From assembly GCA_027459705.1 (NCBI GenBank), contig DAIDHM010000229.1:1-45674 (forward strand): a stretch of DNA of 45,674 nt. The letters run 5' to 3'. Below the pieces are notes generated by a model. It had not been told where the DNA came from and made no database searches. It worked only from the letters and a program-made list of their open reading frames with translations. The first letter of the stretch is position 1. Each line of letters opens with the position of its first letter. The DNA is from Ktedonobacteria bacterium (GTDB taxonomy: Bacteria; Chloroflexota; Ktedonobacteria; Ktedonobacterales; JACDGC01). The position numbers and the translations under genes are program-made. Below are positions 39,907 through 45,674 of this stretch, piece by piece.

Positions 39907-41703
39907 TCAGGCGCGGATGTCTTCTACCAGCGAGAGGTTCAGGAAGAGATCGCAGCTCTGGCGTAGGATCGCTGCCGTCGATTCGTCGAAAGCGGCGACC
40001 TCGACACGTACGCCGTGGTCAGAGCAGTAATCGAGCAGTGGCAAGAAATCGCTGTCCCCGCTCACCAGGACGACCGTATCGACCGCGCCCGCGTCGACAA
40101 TACGCACGATATCCATGCACAAATCGAGGTCGAGATCAGCTTTCTTGGCGCCGCTGGAGAATGTCTTGTAATCCTTGGTGGTGATGCGATATCCCAAACC
40201 CTTGACCGCCTGGAGGAAGGCCTGGTCGGCATACGGTTCCGGGCTGGTTGGGCAGTACGCGTGCGCGCGGATCAAGCGACGTTCATTGCGCAGGAAGGTC
40301 AAAAGTTTGCCGAAGTCGATGGGGATGCGCATGCTGCGAGACGAGTAGAGCAGATTGGCGACATCGACAAAGATGCCGACGCGCTCCGTACTGGGCATGG
40401 CGATGGTAAACATCGGCGTGTTGTTCTGGCGGCGCGATTCCGCGATGAAGCGATCCGTCTGCTGCTGAATAGCACTGGTGATGACCGTCGCCAGATGATT
40501 GGGCGAGATGGGCGCCCCGGTATCGCGTTCCTGACGGACGCGCGTTGGCGGCGCCACACGGAACTCGCTGGCGACGCCGCGTGGCGTCGGACCAAACCCG
40601 CGCGCGTAAGATGGTTCGGGCGAACCATACACGGAAGGTGGTTCAGCAGTGGGCGCTGGCATGGCCGGTGGTGGCGCGCTCGGCGGCGGATAGGTTGGGG
40701 TCTGCGGATAGGTCGGCGCTTGATAGATCGACTCGTTGATCGTCGTTGGCGGCAGTGTTGGCGTCGGCGTGGATTTCGGCGCGCTGGCCTGGGCCGTCGG
40801 CTTGGCCGCGGATGGCGCGGAAGTCATGCTGCGCAATTCGGTGGCGAGCAGATCGGCTGGTGTCACCGGCGCATGACCATTGCTGGAATTACCACTGCCG
40901 CGGCGGCGGCGACGGCGGCGTGAAGATTGCGCCTCGCTGGCCGAGACACTGGCATCTTCGGCGTCATCACTCTGCGCATCCGCGTCGAGAATGTCGAGCA
41001 CATTCTCCTCTTCTTCCGTCTGCGTCTCGATCATCTCAAGTTCCGCATCCGGAATGACGACGAAATCCTGATCAGCGGGAATTATTTCCTCAGCGAGATC
41101 TTCCTCAATGGCCGCGCTGGCCTCGGGAAAGAGTTCCGAATTGGTTGATTGGAGGTCTTCCGAGATTGCAGCAGGGGCGCGCTGTCCAAAGAGAGTCGCG
41201 AAAGGCCCTAACCGGCGTGACTCCGTCGGGGCTGGTGCGCTGGTCGGCGTAGTGGGAGGGCGATCAAAGCGATAGCGGCGTTGTGGTCGATTGGTAGATT
41301 CATCCGCAACGGGAGCAGAGGTTGGAACGGGCGGCACCTCGGCTGCCAGCGGTGGGGTGACGGAACTATTCGTCACTGAGGTATCTTCGGCAGTCGAGTC
41401 CATGGTATGCGCGGCAACCGTGTCTTCGACATTCTTCGTGTTTGCACGCCGCCCGCCACGGCGACCACGCGGATTGCGCGTCGCCCCATTTTCCTGGGCA
41501 GCCGGCACGTTCTCTGCGGCAGGTGTGGCAGTGGGTGCTGGCTCCGACGTGAGGGGCAACGGCGTCGCCTCAGGCGCGTGGGCGGCGCGGGATGGACGAT
41601 GGCGCCGACGTGGTGTGCGGCCACTTTCCTGGGCCATGGTCTCGCCTTCAACCGGCGCTGTGGGATTGGTCACTTCAGTCATACGCTGTTCGTTGTTTTC
41701 CAT
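39907..41703 (-). CDS. NYN-domain (LabA/DUF88) RNase-like protein with a long disordered N terminus
   Basis: A 598-residue protein. The last 157 residues (442-598) form a NYN domain of the PIN-like nuclease superfamily, with the acidic metal-binding residues in VGIFVDVANLLYSSRS, KKADLDLDLCMDI and VVLVSGDSDFLPLL. Such domains cut RNA or act as structural RNA-binding units. The first 440 residues are rich in Pro, Ala, Thr, Ser and Glu with two arginine clusters (RRRHRPSR, SSRRRRRRRG), fitting an RNA-binding or scaffold role. No good ribosome site precedes Met 41703; an ATG at 41727 two nt after the stop of a small ORF is an alternative. The longer frame to 41988 looks non-coding. Confidence 0.85.
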   Translation of the reverse strand: MENNEQRMTEVTNPTAPVEGETMAQESGRTPRRRHRPSRAAHAPEATPLPLTSEPAPTATPAAENVPAAQENGATRNPRGRRGGRRANTKNVEDTVAAHTMDSTAEDTSVTNSSVTPPLAAEVPPVPTSAPVADESTNRPQRRYRFDRPPTTPTSAPAPTESRRLGPFATLFGQRAPAAISEDLQSTNSELFPEASAAIEEDLAEEIIPADQDFVVIPDAELEMIETQTEEEENVLDILDADAQSDDAEDASVSASEAQSSRRRRRRRGSGNSSNGHAPVTPADLLATELRSMTSAPSAAKPTAQASAPKSTPTPTLPPTTINESIYQAPTYPQTPTYPPPSAPPPAMPAPTAEPPSVYGSPEPSYARGFGPTPRGVASEFRVAPPTRVRQERDTGAPISPNHLATVITSAIQQQTDRFIAESRRQNNTPMFTIAMPSTERVGIFVDVANLLYSSRSMRIPIDFGKLLTFLRNERRLIRAHAYCPTSPEPYADQAFLQAVKGLGYRITTKDYKTFSSGAKKADLDLDLCMDIVRIVDAGAVDTVVLVSGDSDFLPLLDYCSDHGVRVEVAAFDESTAAILRQSCDLFLNLSLVEDIRA

Positions 41704-41728
41704 GTTCGTGAATTCAAAGCTCCTCATC

Positions 41729-41878
41729 TCAAGGTGGATAACCCCGAGGAGCGGCGGCGCGCGGTGGGGGGTGGGGCGCAGACATTTCGTCGACAGACTC
41801 AGCATATGTTCCCATCGCTTTGGGATGGTTCCGGTCGTCAGACAGCAGTCCACACGCATCAGCCACCAGCGGCACCAT
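41729..41878 (-). CDS. Possible 49-codon ORF upstream of the NYN gene
   Basis: A frame starting ATG GTG CCG CTG, with GAGGAG 12 nt upstream, ends in TGA 1 nt before an in-frame ATG (41727) of the NYN gene. The arrangement would allow translational coupling and explain the lack of a ribosome site at the NYN start. The protein has no recognised family. Confidence 0.2.
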   Translation of the reverse strand: MVPLVADACGLLSDDRNHPKAMGTYAESVDEMSAPHPPPRAAAPRGYPP

Positions 41879-42229
41879 TTAGGCCGCGTTCTCCTCGGTA
41901 ACTTTCGCGGATATGTGCATGCTGGGCAAGTCGCGAATATTGAAATCAGGAGTGAGCGGCGGCGACTCCCTGCGAAATCAATACGCACAGTTTGTTTCCG
42001 AAGCGCCAGGTTCCATAGCTGGCGCAGATGATACCCCCGGCTAGGGCACGGGCTTGAGCGATCTCACCATCAGCGCGCCGGGGCAAGGCATGGGGTAAGT
42101 TCGTCGACGGCGTCCTCCGCATAGCCTACGCAACATGCATCACGCTCTCGTACCGCTATCGGCAACATCTACCCTTCCTGGAATATCCCAGGGGCCTGAA
42201 GGCCGGTGCCAGACGAGCGCGTGTCCATA
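41879..42229. other. Intergenic region between the phosphatidyltransferase and NYN genes
   Basis: About 350 bp with only short frames, none over 60 codons that looks protein-like. No T-tract terminator or strong minus-strand promoter is visible, although a promoter for the NYN gene is expected here. Confidence 0.4.
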
Positions 42230-42898
42230 TCAACGTTGCGCGAGCGGATCGCGCGTGACAGGTGGCATAACCGCAGGTGGGGCGGCGGCGGAGGCAACGC
42301 GTGCCTGACGCCAAACATACACGATACGCTGGATGCCAGTGAATCCCGTCGTCACCACCATCACCCCAAGCACCCACGGGAGCCAACTTTGACCGCCGAG
42401 GAGTAACCCTCCGCCGAGCACAATGACGCGCTCTGGCCGTTCCATCAGTCCAACTTTACACTCCAGGCCCAGACCTTCGGCGCGGGCCCGTGTATAACTT
42501 ACGAGTAGCGAGAAGAGCGCGGTCAAATATGCCAGCGCAATCTCCCAGGAATGCAATGTGCTCGGAACTTGACGATTGACCGCGTAGATCACTCCCAGGA
42601 AGATGAACCCTTCCGCATAGCGATCCAGCACGGAATCAAGAAACGCGCCAAAGACCGAAGTCTTCTGCTGAACACGCGCGACGGCGCCATCGGCCATATC
42701 GAAGAGGCCGGCAACCAACACCATCAAGCCGCCCAGTCGCAATGGTCCCAGCGCGACGAGCAACGCCGCCACTCCATTGAACACTAATCCCAGGAGCGAT
42801 ACAGTGTTCGGTGTCAACCCAGAACGCGCGATAGGTCGCATGAACCTTTCCGCGACTCCCCGCGCCTGACGCTGAAACTCTGCCCCGAACATAACCAC
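42230..42898 (-). CDS. CDP-alcohol phosphatidyltransferase (PgsA / PI-phosphate synthase-like)
   Basis: A 222-residue membrane enzyme that transfers a phosphatidyl group from CDP-diacylglycerol to an alcohol. The family signature DG-x2-AR-x8-G-x3-D-x3-D is complete: DMADGAVARVQQ, then GAFLDSVLDRY. Five to six helices follow. Members make phosphatidylglycerol-phosphate, phosphatidylinositol-phosphate or archaetidylinositol. It lies last in an operon with a PimA-like glycosyltransferase (90 nt gap) and two acyltransferases, as mycobacterial pgsA1 lies beside patA and pimA; an inositol-phosphate acceptor is therefore the best guess. Confidence 0.88.
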   Translation of the reverse strand: MVMFGAEFQRQARGVAERFMRPIARSGLTPNTVSLLGLVFNGVAALLVALGPLRLGGLMVLVAGLFDMADGAVARVQQKTSVFGAFLDSVLDRYAEGFIFLGVIYAVNRQVPSTLHSWEIALAYLTALFSLLVSYTRARAEGLGLECKVGLMERPERVIVLGGGLLLGGQSWLPWVLGVMVVTTGFTGIQRIVYVWRQARVASAAAPPAVMPPVTRDPLAQR

Positions 42899-42988
42899 TC
42901 CTCGCCTAACCTATCATTATTCTACAACATTTTTGCCCGGAGGGGAAATATGCCATCCGGATGGATCTGTCTGGCCGAATGTCACGAG

Positions 42989-44218
42989 TTATCGACGAAA
43001 CAGCCGACGTGGCGAGGGAATGCGCATGCCCCGTGGAAGGGGGTAGACCTCTTGCTGGCGCTCCAGACTGCGGACCTGACTCTCTTCATAGACCGCTTCG
43101 ATCTCTTCGGTGATACGCTGCCAGCTATAGAGTTGGGCGCGTTGACGCCCCTGTTCTCCAATATGTGCGCGCAATTCAGGTTGGCGCAACAAGTGACAGA
43201 CCGCCCAGGCAAGGCGTTCGGCATCGCGTGGCGGCGTCAACAATCCTTCCGCGGCACTCGGAATCACCGTGCGATAGCCAGGGATGTCTGAGGCTACCAC
43301 TGGTGTCCCCGTTGCCATCGCTTCCAGCAAGATTAATCCCTGGCTCTCACTGCCGGTAGCTGGCGCGCAATAGATCGTCGCGCTGGCGAAATAACTGGGC
43401 TTCTCTTCTTCAGCGACAAATCCGACGAAAACCACATCCTGCCAGCCCATTTGCTGCACGAAGCGTTGAAACTTCATGCGCTGCGGCCCATCCCCAGCGA
43501 TGATGAAACGCAGTGGCGGCCCCCCCATGGAAGCATATTGCTCACGGATCAGCGGGATGGCCTTCAGCAAGAAGCGGAGTCCCTTGCGCGGTTCCAATCG
43601 ACTCAAGAAGAGAATGTTGCAGGCCCCATCAGCAAATTGAGGCAGTGGCGCGACCGTCGGTGCAAAGTGCCCGATATCAATGCCATTTGGGATGATATGG
43701 TAATTCGCGGTGAAATGCCTGCTGACATGCGCCAATGCCGCCGAGGAGACGGCGATATAGCCATCAATACGCCGAAATGACGCTTGCAAGAATGGGCTGG
43801 CCATTGCATAGGCTACCGCTGCCGTCGAGGTGCGCTTATTCGTTGAAGCATGGAAGGTCGCCACGCAGGGAATGTGCATTGCCCGCGCTAAACGCAGGAC
43901 GGCCAGGGTCAAGGTTGAGACCATCGGCTCATGGAGATGGATGATATCGAATTGCTCGAAGCGCAGTAGCCGCCGTAAAGAACCCGTCAGTGCTGGAGTA
44001 ATGGCCACGCGCGCGATCGAGCCATTGAGCCGCAAGGGTGCGGTCCACCCGATTTTATAGATTCCAAATTCGATCGGGCGATCGCCGCGTTGTGAACTGG
44101 GAGTGAGGATGCGAACGGAATGTCCGCGATGCCGCAGTTCCGTCGCCAGATGCTCAATATGGGTCTTGACGCCACCGGGATAGCCCCAATCGTAGGGTGA
44201 GACGAGTGCGATCTTCAA
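42989..44218 (-). CDS. GT4 glycosyltransferase, PimA-like phosphatidyl-inositol mannosyltransferase
   Basis: A 409-residue GT-B glycosyltransferase of family GT4. The N terminus MKIALVSPYDWGYPGGVKTH and the blocks RLNGSIARVAI and FDIIHLHEPMV match PimA, which adds the first mannose to phosphatidylinositol from GDP-mannose. The C-terminal donor site has FLSRLEPRKGLRFL and the E-x7-E motif SESQGLILLEAMATGTPVV. The basic amphipathic tail (MRIPSPRRLFRR) could help bind the membrane. It is the central gene of a lipid-glycosylation operon. Substrate assignment rests on motif resemblance plus neighbours. Confidence 0.88.
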   Translation of the reverse strand: MKIALVSPYDWGYPGGVKTHIEHLATELRHRGHSVRILTPSSQRGDRPIEFGIYKIGWTAPLRLNGSIARVAITPALTGSLRRLLRFEQFDIIHLHEPMVSTLTLAVLRLARAMHIPCVATFHASTNKRTSTAAVAYAMASPFLQASFRRIDGYIAVSSAALAHVSRHFTANYHIIPNGIDIGHFAPTVAPLPQFADGACNILFLSRLEPRKGLRFLLKAIPLIREQYASMGGPPLRFIIAGDGPQRMKFQRFVQQMGWQDVVFVGFVAEEEKPSYFASATIYCAPATGSESQGLILLEAMATGTPVVASDIPGYRTVIPSAAEGLLTPPRDAERLAWAVCHLLRQPELRAHIGEQGRQRAQLYSWQRITEEIEAVYEESQVRSLERQQEVYPLPRGMRIPSPRRLFRR

Positions 44219-44274
44219 AGTAACCCCTCCGCACGCAGGCCGCCACGCATGAGCCTATCCTCAGCCAGAGTTCA

Positions 44275-44300
44275 ATACGGTCAATCACACTATACCGTAT
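44275..44300. promoter_or_regulatory. Inverted repeat in the gap before the PimA-like gene
   Basis: ATACGGT (44275-44281) and ACCGTAT (44294-44300) are inverted copies 12 nt apart. A minus-strand TATAGT (44294-44289) falls in the spacer and edge, so this could be an internal promoter with an operator. No -35 is seen. Confidence 0.3.
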
Positions 44301-44344
44301 CAACATCAATAACAGGTAAAATTGTTGATCCGCCAGGAGCAGGG

Positions 44345-45274
44345 TTACCTGGGCGCCGCGGTCGGAATCGGTGCGGTCGGCAGCGTCGCAACTTCGACAT
44401 CCCAGACATCATTCGCGAACACTGCCAACCATTGTTCAGGATGCGCCATGATCTGCTCCTCGAGTACCGCAATCAATGGTTCCAGAGCGGCGCGCACAGC
44501 GGCATCCCCACGCGTCGTCGCGTCGATGGGGGCATGGGCCACGATCAATTGTCCATGGTAGCGCATCAGGCCTTCGCGCCAGGGAAACGAGAAGAGGATC
44601 GGCGCCCCTGTCAGCCGCGACAAGGCCACCGGCCCAATCGGGATACGCGATGGCGCGCCAAAGAGCGGCAACGTCATGCCGCTCTGCTGAACATCGCGAT
44701 CCAGCGCCAATAACACCCCATCGCCAGCGCGCAACGCCGCGATCATCGTCCGCAGTGTCGCACCTTCGTTAATCGGTGGAAACTCCATGCCACTGCGCTC
44801 ACGTTGGGCACGGACCATTGCGTAAAGGTCCGGTGGCGCGAGTGCCTCCGCGGGCGCGACCAAACGTCGCCCACGCGCCAGCTCCACGATGCGATAGGTC
44901 GCCGCTTCAAAGGTATCCGTATGGTATGCCAGAATGATGACGCCCTGGCCACGTGCCAGCACCGCCGCCAGCTCACCATCGTTCGCTACGGGAAATCGCG
45001 CGGAGAAAGCCGCGCCCCAACGTTGCGCAGGGGGGTCAAAGAGATCGACGTAATTCAAGATGAGATGGACAAAACTCTGGCGTGTGACTCGTTGCAAGCG
45101 CTGCGGATCGGCCACGAGGGTGGGGATATGCGCGAGCTTAGCGCGGACACGGACGCGCATACCCGGCAACATCAGCCACATGATCGTCCCGATGGCGACG
45201 GCAAACATACGCGTGAGACGCGCAGGCAGGCGGGGCAGGAGCCAGAATGCCAACCGGTAGCTGGAGGTCTTCAT
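44345..45274 (-). CDS. HtrB/LpxL/PatA-family lipid acyltransferase
   Basis: A 309-residue membrane-associated acyltransferase. It has an N-terminal hydrophobic helix (about 22-40), the catalytic His-x4-Glu motif in AYHTDTFEAA, and the family blocks GVLLALDRDVQ, LFGAPSRIPIGPVALSRLTG and the C-terminal HPEQWLAVFANDVWD. In mycobacteria the homologue PatA acylates phosphatidylinositol mannosides; in Gram-negatives the relatives act on lipid A, of which there is no sign here. Its ATG overlaps the stop of the upstream acyltransferase gene by 4 bp, and the PimA-like gene follows after 126 nt. Confidence 0.88.
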   Translation of the reverse strand: MKTSSYRLAFWLLPRLPARLTRMFAVAIGTIMWLMLPGMRVRVRAKLAHIPTLVADPQRLQRVTRQSFVHLILNYVDLFDPPAQRWGAAFSARFPVANDGELAAVLARGQGVIILAYHTDTFEAATYRIVELARGRRLVAPAEALAPPDLYAMVRAQRERSGMEFPPINEGATLRTMIAALRAGDGVLLALDRDVQQSGMTLPLFGAPSRIPIGPVALSRLTGAPILFSFPWREGLMRYHGQLIVAHAPIDATTRGDAAVRAALEPLIAVLEEQIMAHPEQWLAVFANDVWDVEVATLPTAPIPTAAPR

Positions 45275-45674
45275 AGGTCGGATCCTCCCGGCGCGCTCAG
45301 CGCCGAGGCGTCCTTGCCAGGTATGATAGCGGCGGGTTCCGCGTCATCGGGCCAGAATTGGCGGAACATGTACCATTGGGTCGGATCCTGGCGCACCATG
45401 ACTTCGAAGGCATCGAACAGAGTCTGGGCCGCACGTTGGATATCCGCATCCTCATTGCCGGTTCGCTCGATGATAATCGGCGGAAAAATGCGGCCGAAGT
45501 AGCCATAGATTCCATCATACCACGCGAAGCCCGGGACGATCGCCGCGCCTACTTTGATGGCAATCGCCAGCAATCCACGGGGTATATAGGCCGTTCGTCC
45601 GAAGAAGCGGACCGGAACCCCTTCACCGACCGCCAGGGGCCGATCAATTGGCGTCGCGACCACTTCACCCTGAC
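45271..45674 (-). CDS. Second HtrB/PatA-like acyltransferase, cut by the right edge
   Basis: The visible 134 residues are the C-terminal half of an acyltransferase of the same family. They begin QGEVVATPIDRPLAV, and continue with VPVRFFGRTAYIPRGLLAIA and end QDPTQWYMFRQFWPDD, matching the family's DR and HPEQW positions. The catalytic His lies beyond the edge. The frame is open to the last base. It is translationally coupled (ATGA overlap) to the next acyltransferase, so the pair are either successive acylation steps or a heterodimer. Confidence 0.85.
   Translation of the reverse strand, partial: QGEVVATPIDRPLAVGEGVPVRFFGRTAYIPRGLLAIAIKVGAAIVPGFAWYDGIYGYFGRIFPPIIIERTGNEDADIQRAAQTLFDAFEVMVRQDPTQWYMFRQFWPDDAEPAAIIPGKDASALSAPGGSDL

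Follow-up and report, generated by a model that had tools for sequence, protein, structure and literature searches.

The DNA analyzed here, which we call the window, is the whole of a 45674-base contig (C24) from a Ktedonobacteria bacterium of the Chloroflexota, and the final 3.4 kb of its minus strand carry what appears to be most of an inositol-lipid operon. We propose, with a probability of roughly 0.8, that this operon makes an acylated glycosyl-phosphatidylinositol (glycosyl-PI), most likely an acylated PI mannoside (PIM), at the cytoplasmic face of the membrane. Four frames on the minus strand belong to the locus, and all four appear in the open reading frames and in the Pfam matches as originally predicted. 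They encode the C-terminal half of an upstream PatA/LpxL-type acyltransferase (AcB; 45271..45672; the last 133 residues, the frame running off the contig), a second such acyltransferase (AcA; 44345..45274; 309 residues), a PimA-clade GT4 glycosyltransferase (42989..44218; 409 residues, with a TTG start and a GGAGGGG leader), and a CDP-alcohol phosphotransferase resembling phosphatidylinositol-phosphate (PIP) synthase (42230..42898; 222 residues counted from a GTG). Both acyltransferases match Pfam Lip_A_acyltrans and the phosphotransferase matches CDP-OH_P_transf. With Pfam E-values of 7e-14 to 2e-35 for the operon proteins, the four domain assignments are not due to chance. The three complete genes (for AcA, GT4 and the phosphotransferase) have purine-rich, Shine-Dalgarno-like leaders. 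Screening for sigma-70 promoters and terminators gave nothing above chance level, and the Rfam screen returned zero matches.

The original prediction had described two tandem acyltransferases with a 4-bp overlap. Both are present and they do overlap by 4 bp, in an ATGA at 45271-45274; the upstream one is incomplete in the window, its other half lying on another contig of the same genome, C141. The same contig holds the only inositol-1-phosphate synthase gene (ino1) of the genome, at 128.6 bits. The N-terminal half of AcB (G000:C141:6968-7564) begins 14 bp past ino1 and runs off the end of C141. In Pfam Lip_A_acyltrans, the two halves cover positions 15-187 (C141) and 190-293 (window). They align head to tail on eight complete relatives, with 1-2 residues missing in seven; in the eighth (L089), where the alignment of the N-terminal half ends at residue 191, 10 residues are missing. 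We looked for sequence overlap between C141 and C24 and found none; the contigs abut. As the halves of AcB are complementary both in Pfam and in the alignments to the relatives, we take the two contigs to be neighbors, and the true operon is very probably ino1-AcB-AcA-pimA-pgsA. The search for ino1 suggested along with the prediction thus located the gene, very probably within the operon itself. On C141, Ino1 is fused in frame after an ArsR-type helix-turn-helix domain in a protein of 473 residues (L003:5532-6953). ArsR and Ino1 share one open frame in four further genomes as well (G032, G041, G009 and G132), all of the family of the window; in other families of the order, arsR and ino1 are separate neighboring genes. 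Ahead of the Ino1 part lies a potential internal start codon, which is ATG or, in the genome of the window, GTG; two products from the ArsR-Ino1 frame are therefore possible.

In the phosphotransferase, as predicted, the CDP-alcohol phosphotransferase signature is complete; it occupies residues 70-95 of the translation and reads D-x2-DG-x2-AR-x8-G-x3-D-x3-D. Its best solved relative is the PIP synthase of Mycobacterium tuberculosis (81 bits in the PDB). It retains the catalytic aspartates of that enzyme (D68, D71, D89 and D93) together with S132, P153, R155 and R195. The two arginines are those that bind inositol phosphate in the mycobacterial protein (PMC4634129). The signature, S132, P153, R155 and R195 are common to PgsA1 (PDB 6H53) and archaetidylinositol-phosphate synthase; unlike PgsA1, the window protein has arginine in place of K135, and its nearest NCBIfam model is archaeal. 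The archaetidylinositol-phosphate synthase model scores 151 bits and the PIP synthase model 130 bits, both under their cut-offs (170 bits for the latter, PIPSynth), as for a diverged homologue.

AcA resembles PatA, the PIM acyltransferase, in sequence and in fold. Among solved structures it matches PatA best (44 bits, against 17 for LpxM), the PIM acyltransferase model leads its NCBIfam scores (102 bits, the next 40), and PatA is the best PDB match of an AlphaFold2 model of AcA (E 1.1e-14; predicted local distance difference test score, pLDDT, 80), for which AcA was aligned with nine PatAs of Actinobacteria. H118, E143, R158 and D192 of AcA correspond to H126, E149, R164 and E200 of PatA; the roles of H126, R164 and E200 have been described (PMC4792965). 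AcB, with its two halves aligned, also has the catalytic histidine, the counterpart of R164 and a carboxylate at E200, and throughout the phylum nearly every AcA and AcB protein retains the histidine, the arginine and an acid at these positions. In common with PatA (PDB 5F2T), then, are H126, E149, R164 and an E200-type carboxylate; the differences are an identity of 20-25%, an HX4E variant of the motif in AcA, and the presence of two paralogous lineages in Chloroflexota. The PRK07920 cut-off of 209 bits is not reached by AcA (102) or by the AcB fragment (65), and we expect the two proteins to work like PatA without being equivalog members.

AcA and AcB form separate lineages (SH-aLRT, an approximate likelihood-ratio branch support, of 99), apart from two misplaced downstream copies, and both are present in distant families; the two paralogous lineages are ancient. 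The simplest reading is two enzymes that add two acyl chains. Alternatively, AcA and AcB may be subunits of a single heteromeric acyltransferase, or one may be a regulator, so that a single chain is added. The strict tandem with its overlapping junction would suit such an arrangement, as would the occurrence of only one acyltransferase copy in some genomes and the replacement in AcA of Y83 and W130 of PatA by N and F (D131 is E or D in AcA; AcB mostly keeps all three). Yet the catalytic histidine, the block 3 carboxylate and the R164 equivalent are kept through the phylum in both lineages, which separated early in its history, as expected of two enzymes with different acceptors. We consider a single added chain unlikely, though less so than the other alternatives discussed below.

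The GT4 enzyme is a PimA-clade protein with donor-site and catalytic residues intact. Searched against solved structures it scores 195 bits with PimA, 89 with 6kih (a sucrose-phosphate synthase), 75 with 7qsg and 61 with PimB'. Within the fetched loci, M. smegmatis PimA scores 135-420 bits with the 32 GT4 proteins of the PimA group and at most 107 with all others. In the tree, a branch with support 87/55 separates 18 Chloroflexota proteins, 11 actinobacterial PimAs and four proteins from Stahlbacteria, WOR-3 and Thermotogota from the other GT4 enzymes. The 11 actinobacterial PimAs form a group of their own (100/100), and within the order of the window the tree mirrors host taxonomy. Identical to PimA are the donor-site and catalytic residues G16, H118, R196, K202, E274 and E282, whose roles are known (PMC9883506, PMC4506291), as well as N63, S65, R68 and E199. 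An AlphaFold2 model (pLDDT 86) has PimA as its top PDB match (Foldseek, E 3.8e-28), a fold match that depends in part on the sequence result, the model having been built on an alignment that includes actinobacterial PimAs. PimA itself (GDP-mannose:PI alpha-1,2-mannosyltransferase; PDB 2GEJ, 4N9W) is thus the best match in sequence and fold; unlike it, the Chloroflexota proteins occupy their own branches. We had also considered diacylglycerol glucosyltransferases, a grouping that would have spoken against the original prediction; the best such NCBIfam model scores 66 bits, far under PimA, and NCBIfam, PDB scores, tree and fold all place the enzyme with PimA. The PimA-clade proteins of Stahlbacteria, Thermotogota and WOR-3 (L004, L008, L012 and L017) have no pgsA detected adjoining in the fetched stretch, and in one WOR-3 genome an acyltransferase lies directly ahead of the PimA-clade gene. 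One genome of the family of the window (G161; contigs C742, C250 and C825) has three PimA-like and two pgsA-like genes.

The distribution of these genes across relatives separates two layers of the pathway. The order ino1-AcB-AcA-pimA-pgsA recurs in many sampled Chloroflexota families, where arsR often precedes ino1 and a PHP gene pimA. The survey of the order covered 47 genomes: PimA and an acyltransferase occur together in 26 and are both missing from 20 (Fisher 2e-12, with kinship ignored); in the sole genome with PimA alone, PimA begins at base 9 of its contig. PIP synthase is found in 45 of the 47 genomes and Ino1 in 44. A genome that we take to be that of Ktedonobacter racemifer (G181) has PgsA and Ino1 and lacks PimA and the acyltransferases; the reported polar lipids of K. 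racemifer include PI, and Dictyobacter also has PI (PMC12453558). From this co-occurrence pattern and the two lipid reports it follows that PI synthesis is a general feature of the order, with PimA and the acyltransferases as a linked extension.

In the pathway that we propose, Ino1 would convert glucose-6-phosphate to inositol-1-phosphate, from which the phosphotransferase, with CDP-diacylglycerol, would form PI-phosphate. PI would come from this through a phosphatase encoded outside the window, for which a PHP phosphoesterase is a candidate. The PimA-like enzyme would then place a hexose, probably mannose from GDP-mannose, on the inositol ring, and AcB and AcA would attach acyl chains, most simply one apiece. 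The donor sugar, the acceptor hydroxyl, the acyl positions and the order of the steps we infer. The presence of ino1, the grouping of the GT4 enzyme, the co-occurrence of the genes and the agreement of genotype and lipid in K. racemifer support the predicted acylated glycosyl-PI lipid outside Actinobacteria.

Several observations weigh against this proposal. The C141-C24 junction was deduced and not assembled, the NCBIfam scores of the operon proteins lie under the curated cut-offs, the support for the PimA clade against other GT4 enzymes is moderate at 87/55, and the identity of the GT4 enzyme to PimA is about 33%. Nor did a clear PimB' emerge, the genome's own paralogues (L146 and L148) matching PimB' no better than MshA. 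Lastly, relative to the donor site of M. smegmatis PimA, the GT4 enzyme has D253 replaced by E and F276 by Q, so that another nucleoside-diphosphate sugar is possible. The enzyme might accordingly transfer glucose, N-acetylglucosamine or galactose to PI, the product being an acylated glycosyl-PI and no mannoside; other Chloroflexota proteins of the clade have A or S at position 253. The window enzyme is nevertheless still acidic at that position, PimA remains its best match, and the genome contains a homologue of GDP-mannose pyrophosphorylase (TIGR01479, 306 bits, under the cut-off of 373). We thus judge a different sugar to be distinctly improbable and mannose the likelier donor. That the acyltransferases are lipid A-type secondary enzymes and the GT4 protein a general membrane glycosyltransferase, in an operon for another glycolipid, is suggested by the family name Lip_A_acyltrans and is very hard to reconcile with the preference of AcA for PIM acyltransferase and PatA over LpxM, with the linkage to ino1 and PIP synthase, and with the description of Chloroflexota as being without a lipopolysaccharide pathway (PMC13319060).

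Prokaryotic PI synthesis requires a phosphatase after PIP synthase, which was not identified in PMC4634129; that of Bacteroides was later found to be BT_1525 (PMC9246714). One PHP subfamily, PHP1 (for example G181:C9:2573826-2575565), occurs in 38 genomes. In 35 of these, of which 14 lack pimA, it lies within 2.5 kb of pgsA and on the same strand. Its HxH, DHD, E, HP and SDAH motifs are readable. Because it adjoins pgsA, also in genomes devoid of pimA, PHP1 is a good candidate for the PIP phosphatase. The genome and family of the window are without PHP1 and have only a second subfamily, PHP2, which occurs in 23 of 27 pimA-positive and none of 20 pimA-negative genomes of the order and never near pgsA. 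The PHP2 gene of the genome (L167:1748-2647, on G000:C197) is 63% identical to the PHP gene adjoining pimA in L133. A fuller picture, which we put forward tentatively and at somewhat less than even odds, would be a self-contained PIM pathway of Chloroflexota, separate since ancient times, in which a dedicated second PatA paralogue yields a di-acylated product and PHP1 is the missing PI-phosphate phosphatase.

Downstream of the operon in the window, on the same strand, is a gene for a NYN-domain protein (39907..41988), a conserved neighbor that eight related loci also have just downstream of pgsA. Its N-terminal part is long and of low complexity; its C-terminal domain is 70-87% identical across the eight relatives. 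The protein probably stands outside the lipid pathway.

PI mannosides are regarded as a trait of Actinobacteria, and an open literature search found no publications tying PIMs or such genes to Chloroflexota. A 2015 paper in Lipids reportedly describes acylated phosphoinositol mannosides on long-chain diols in Thermomicrobia, also of the Chloroflexota. If this is right, it speaks for the proposed pathway, the lipid is less novel and the novelty of the gene assignment is untouched. The operon would place the core of the PIM pathway in a second phylum and as an inherited trait there, with a bearing on when the pathway arose. The operon also offers handles on two gaps, the phosphatase from PIP to PI and the enzyme of the second PIM acylation, which has not been identified (PMC9490103).

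Among bacteria, inositol lipids are described as being confined for the most part to Actinobacteria, spirochaetes and Bacteroidetes (PMC9246714). The Bacteroides cluster BT_1522-BT_1526 likewise joins Ino1, PIP synthase and a phosphatase outside Actinobacteria, and its products are PI and phosphoinositol dihydroceramide; unlike the operon here, it has no PimA or PatA named, and its phosphatase BT_1525 is annotated PgpA rather than PHP (PMC9246714). The closest known system is the mycobacterial Rv2612c-Rv2611c-Rv2610c (pgsA1-patA-pimA), in which genes of these three enzyme families also lie side by side in one orientation, with shared residues for catalysis and PIP synthesis, and with ino1 in the genome. 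The Chloroflexota operon would work in the manner of this mycobacterial pathway; it encodes homologues of PgsA1, PatA and PimA, none of which attains an equivalog cut-off. It differs from it in its order, ino1-AcB-AcA-(PHP)-pimA-pgsA, in having ino1 inside the operon, in the PHP phosphoesterase of many relatives, in its phylum, and in its two PatA-type paralogues, where the mycobacterial cluster and the fetched actinobacterial loci (pgsA-patA-pimA) have one acyltransferase.

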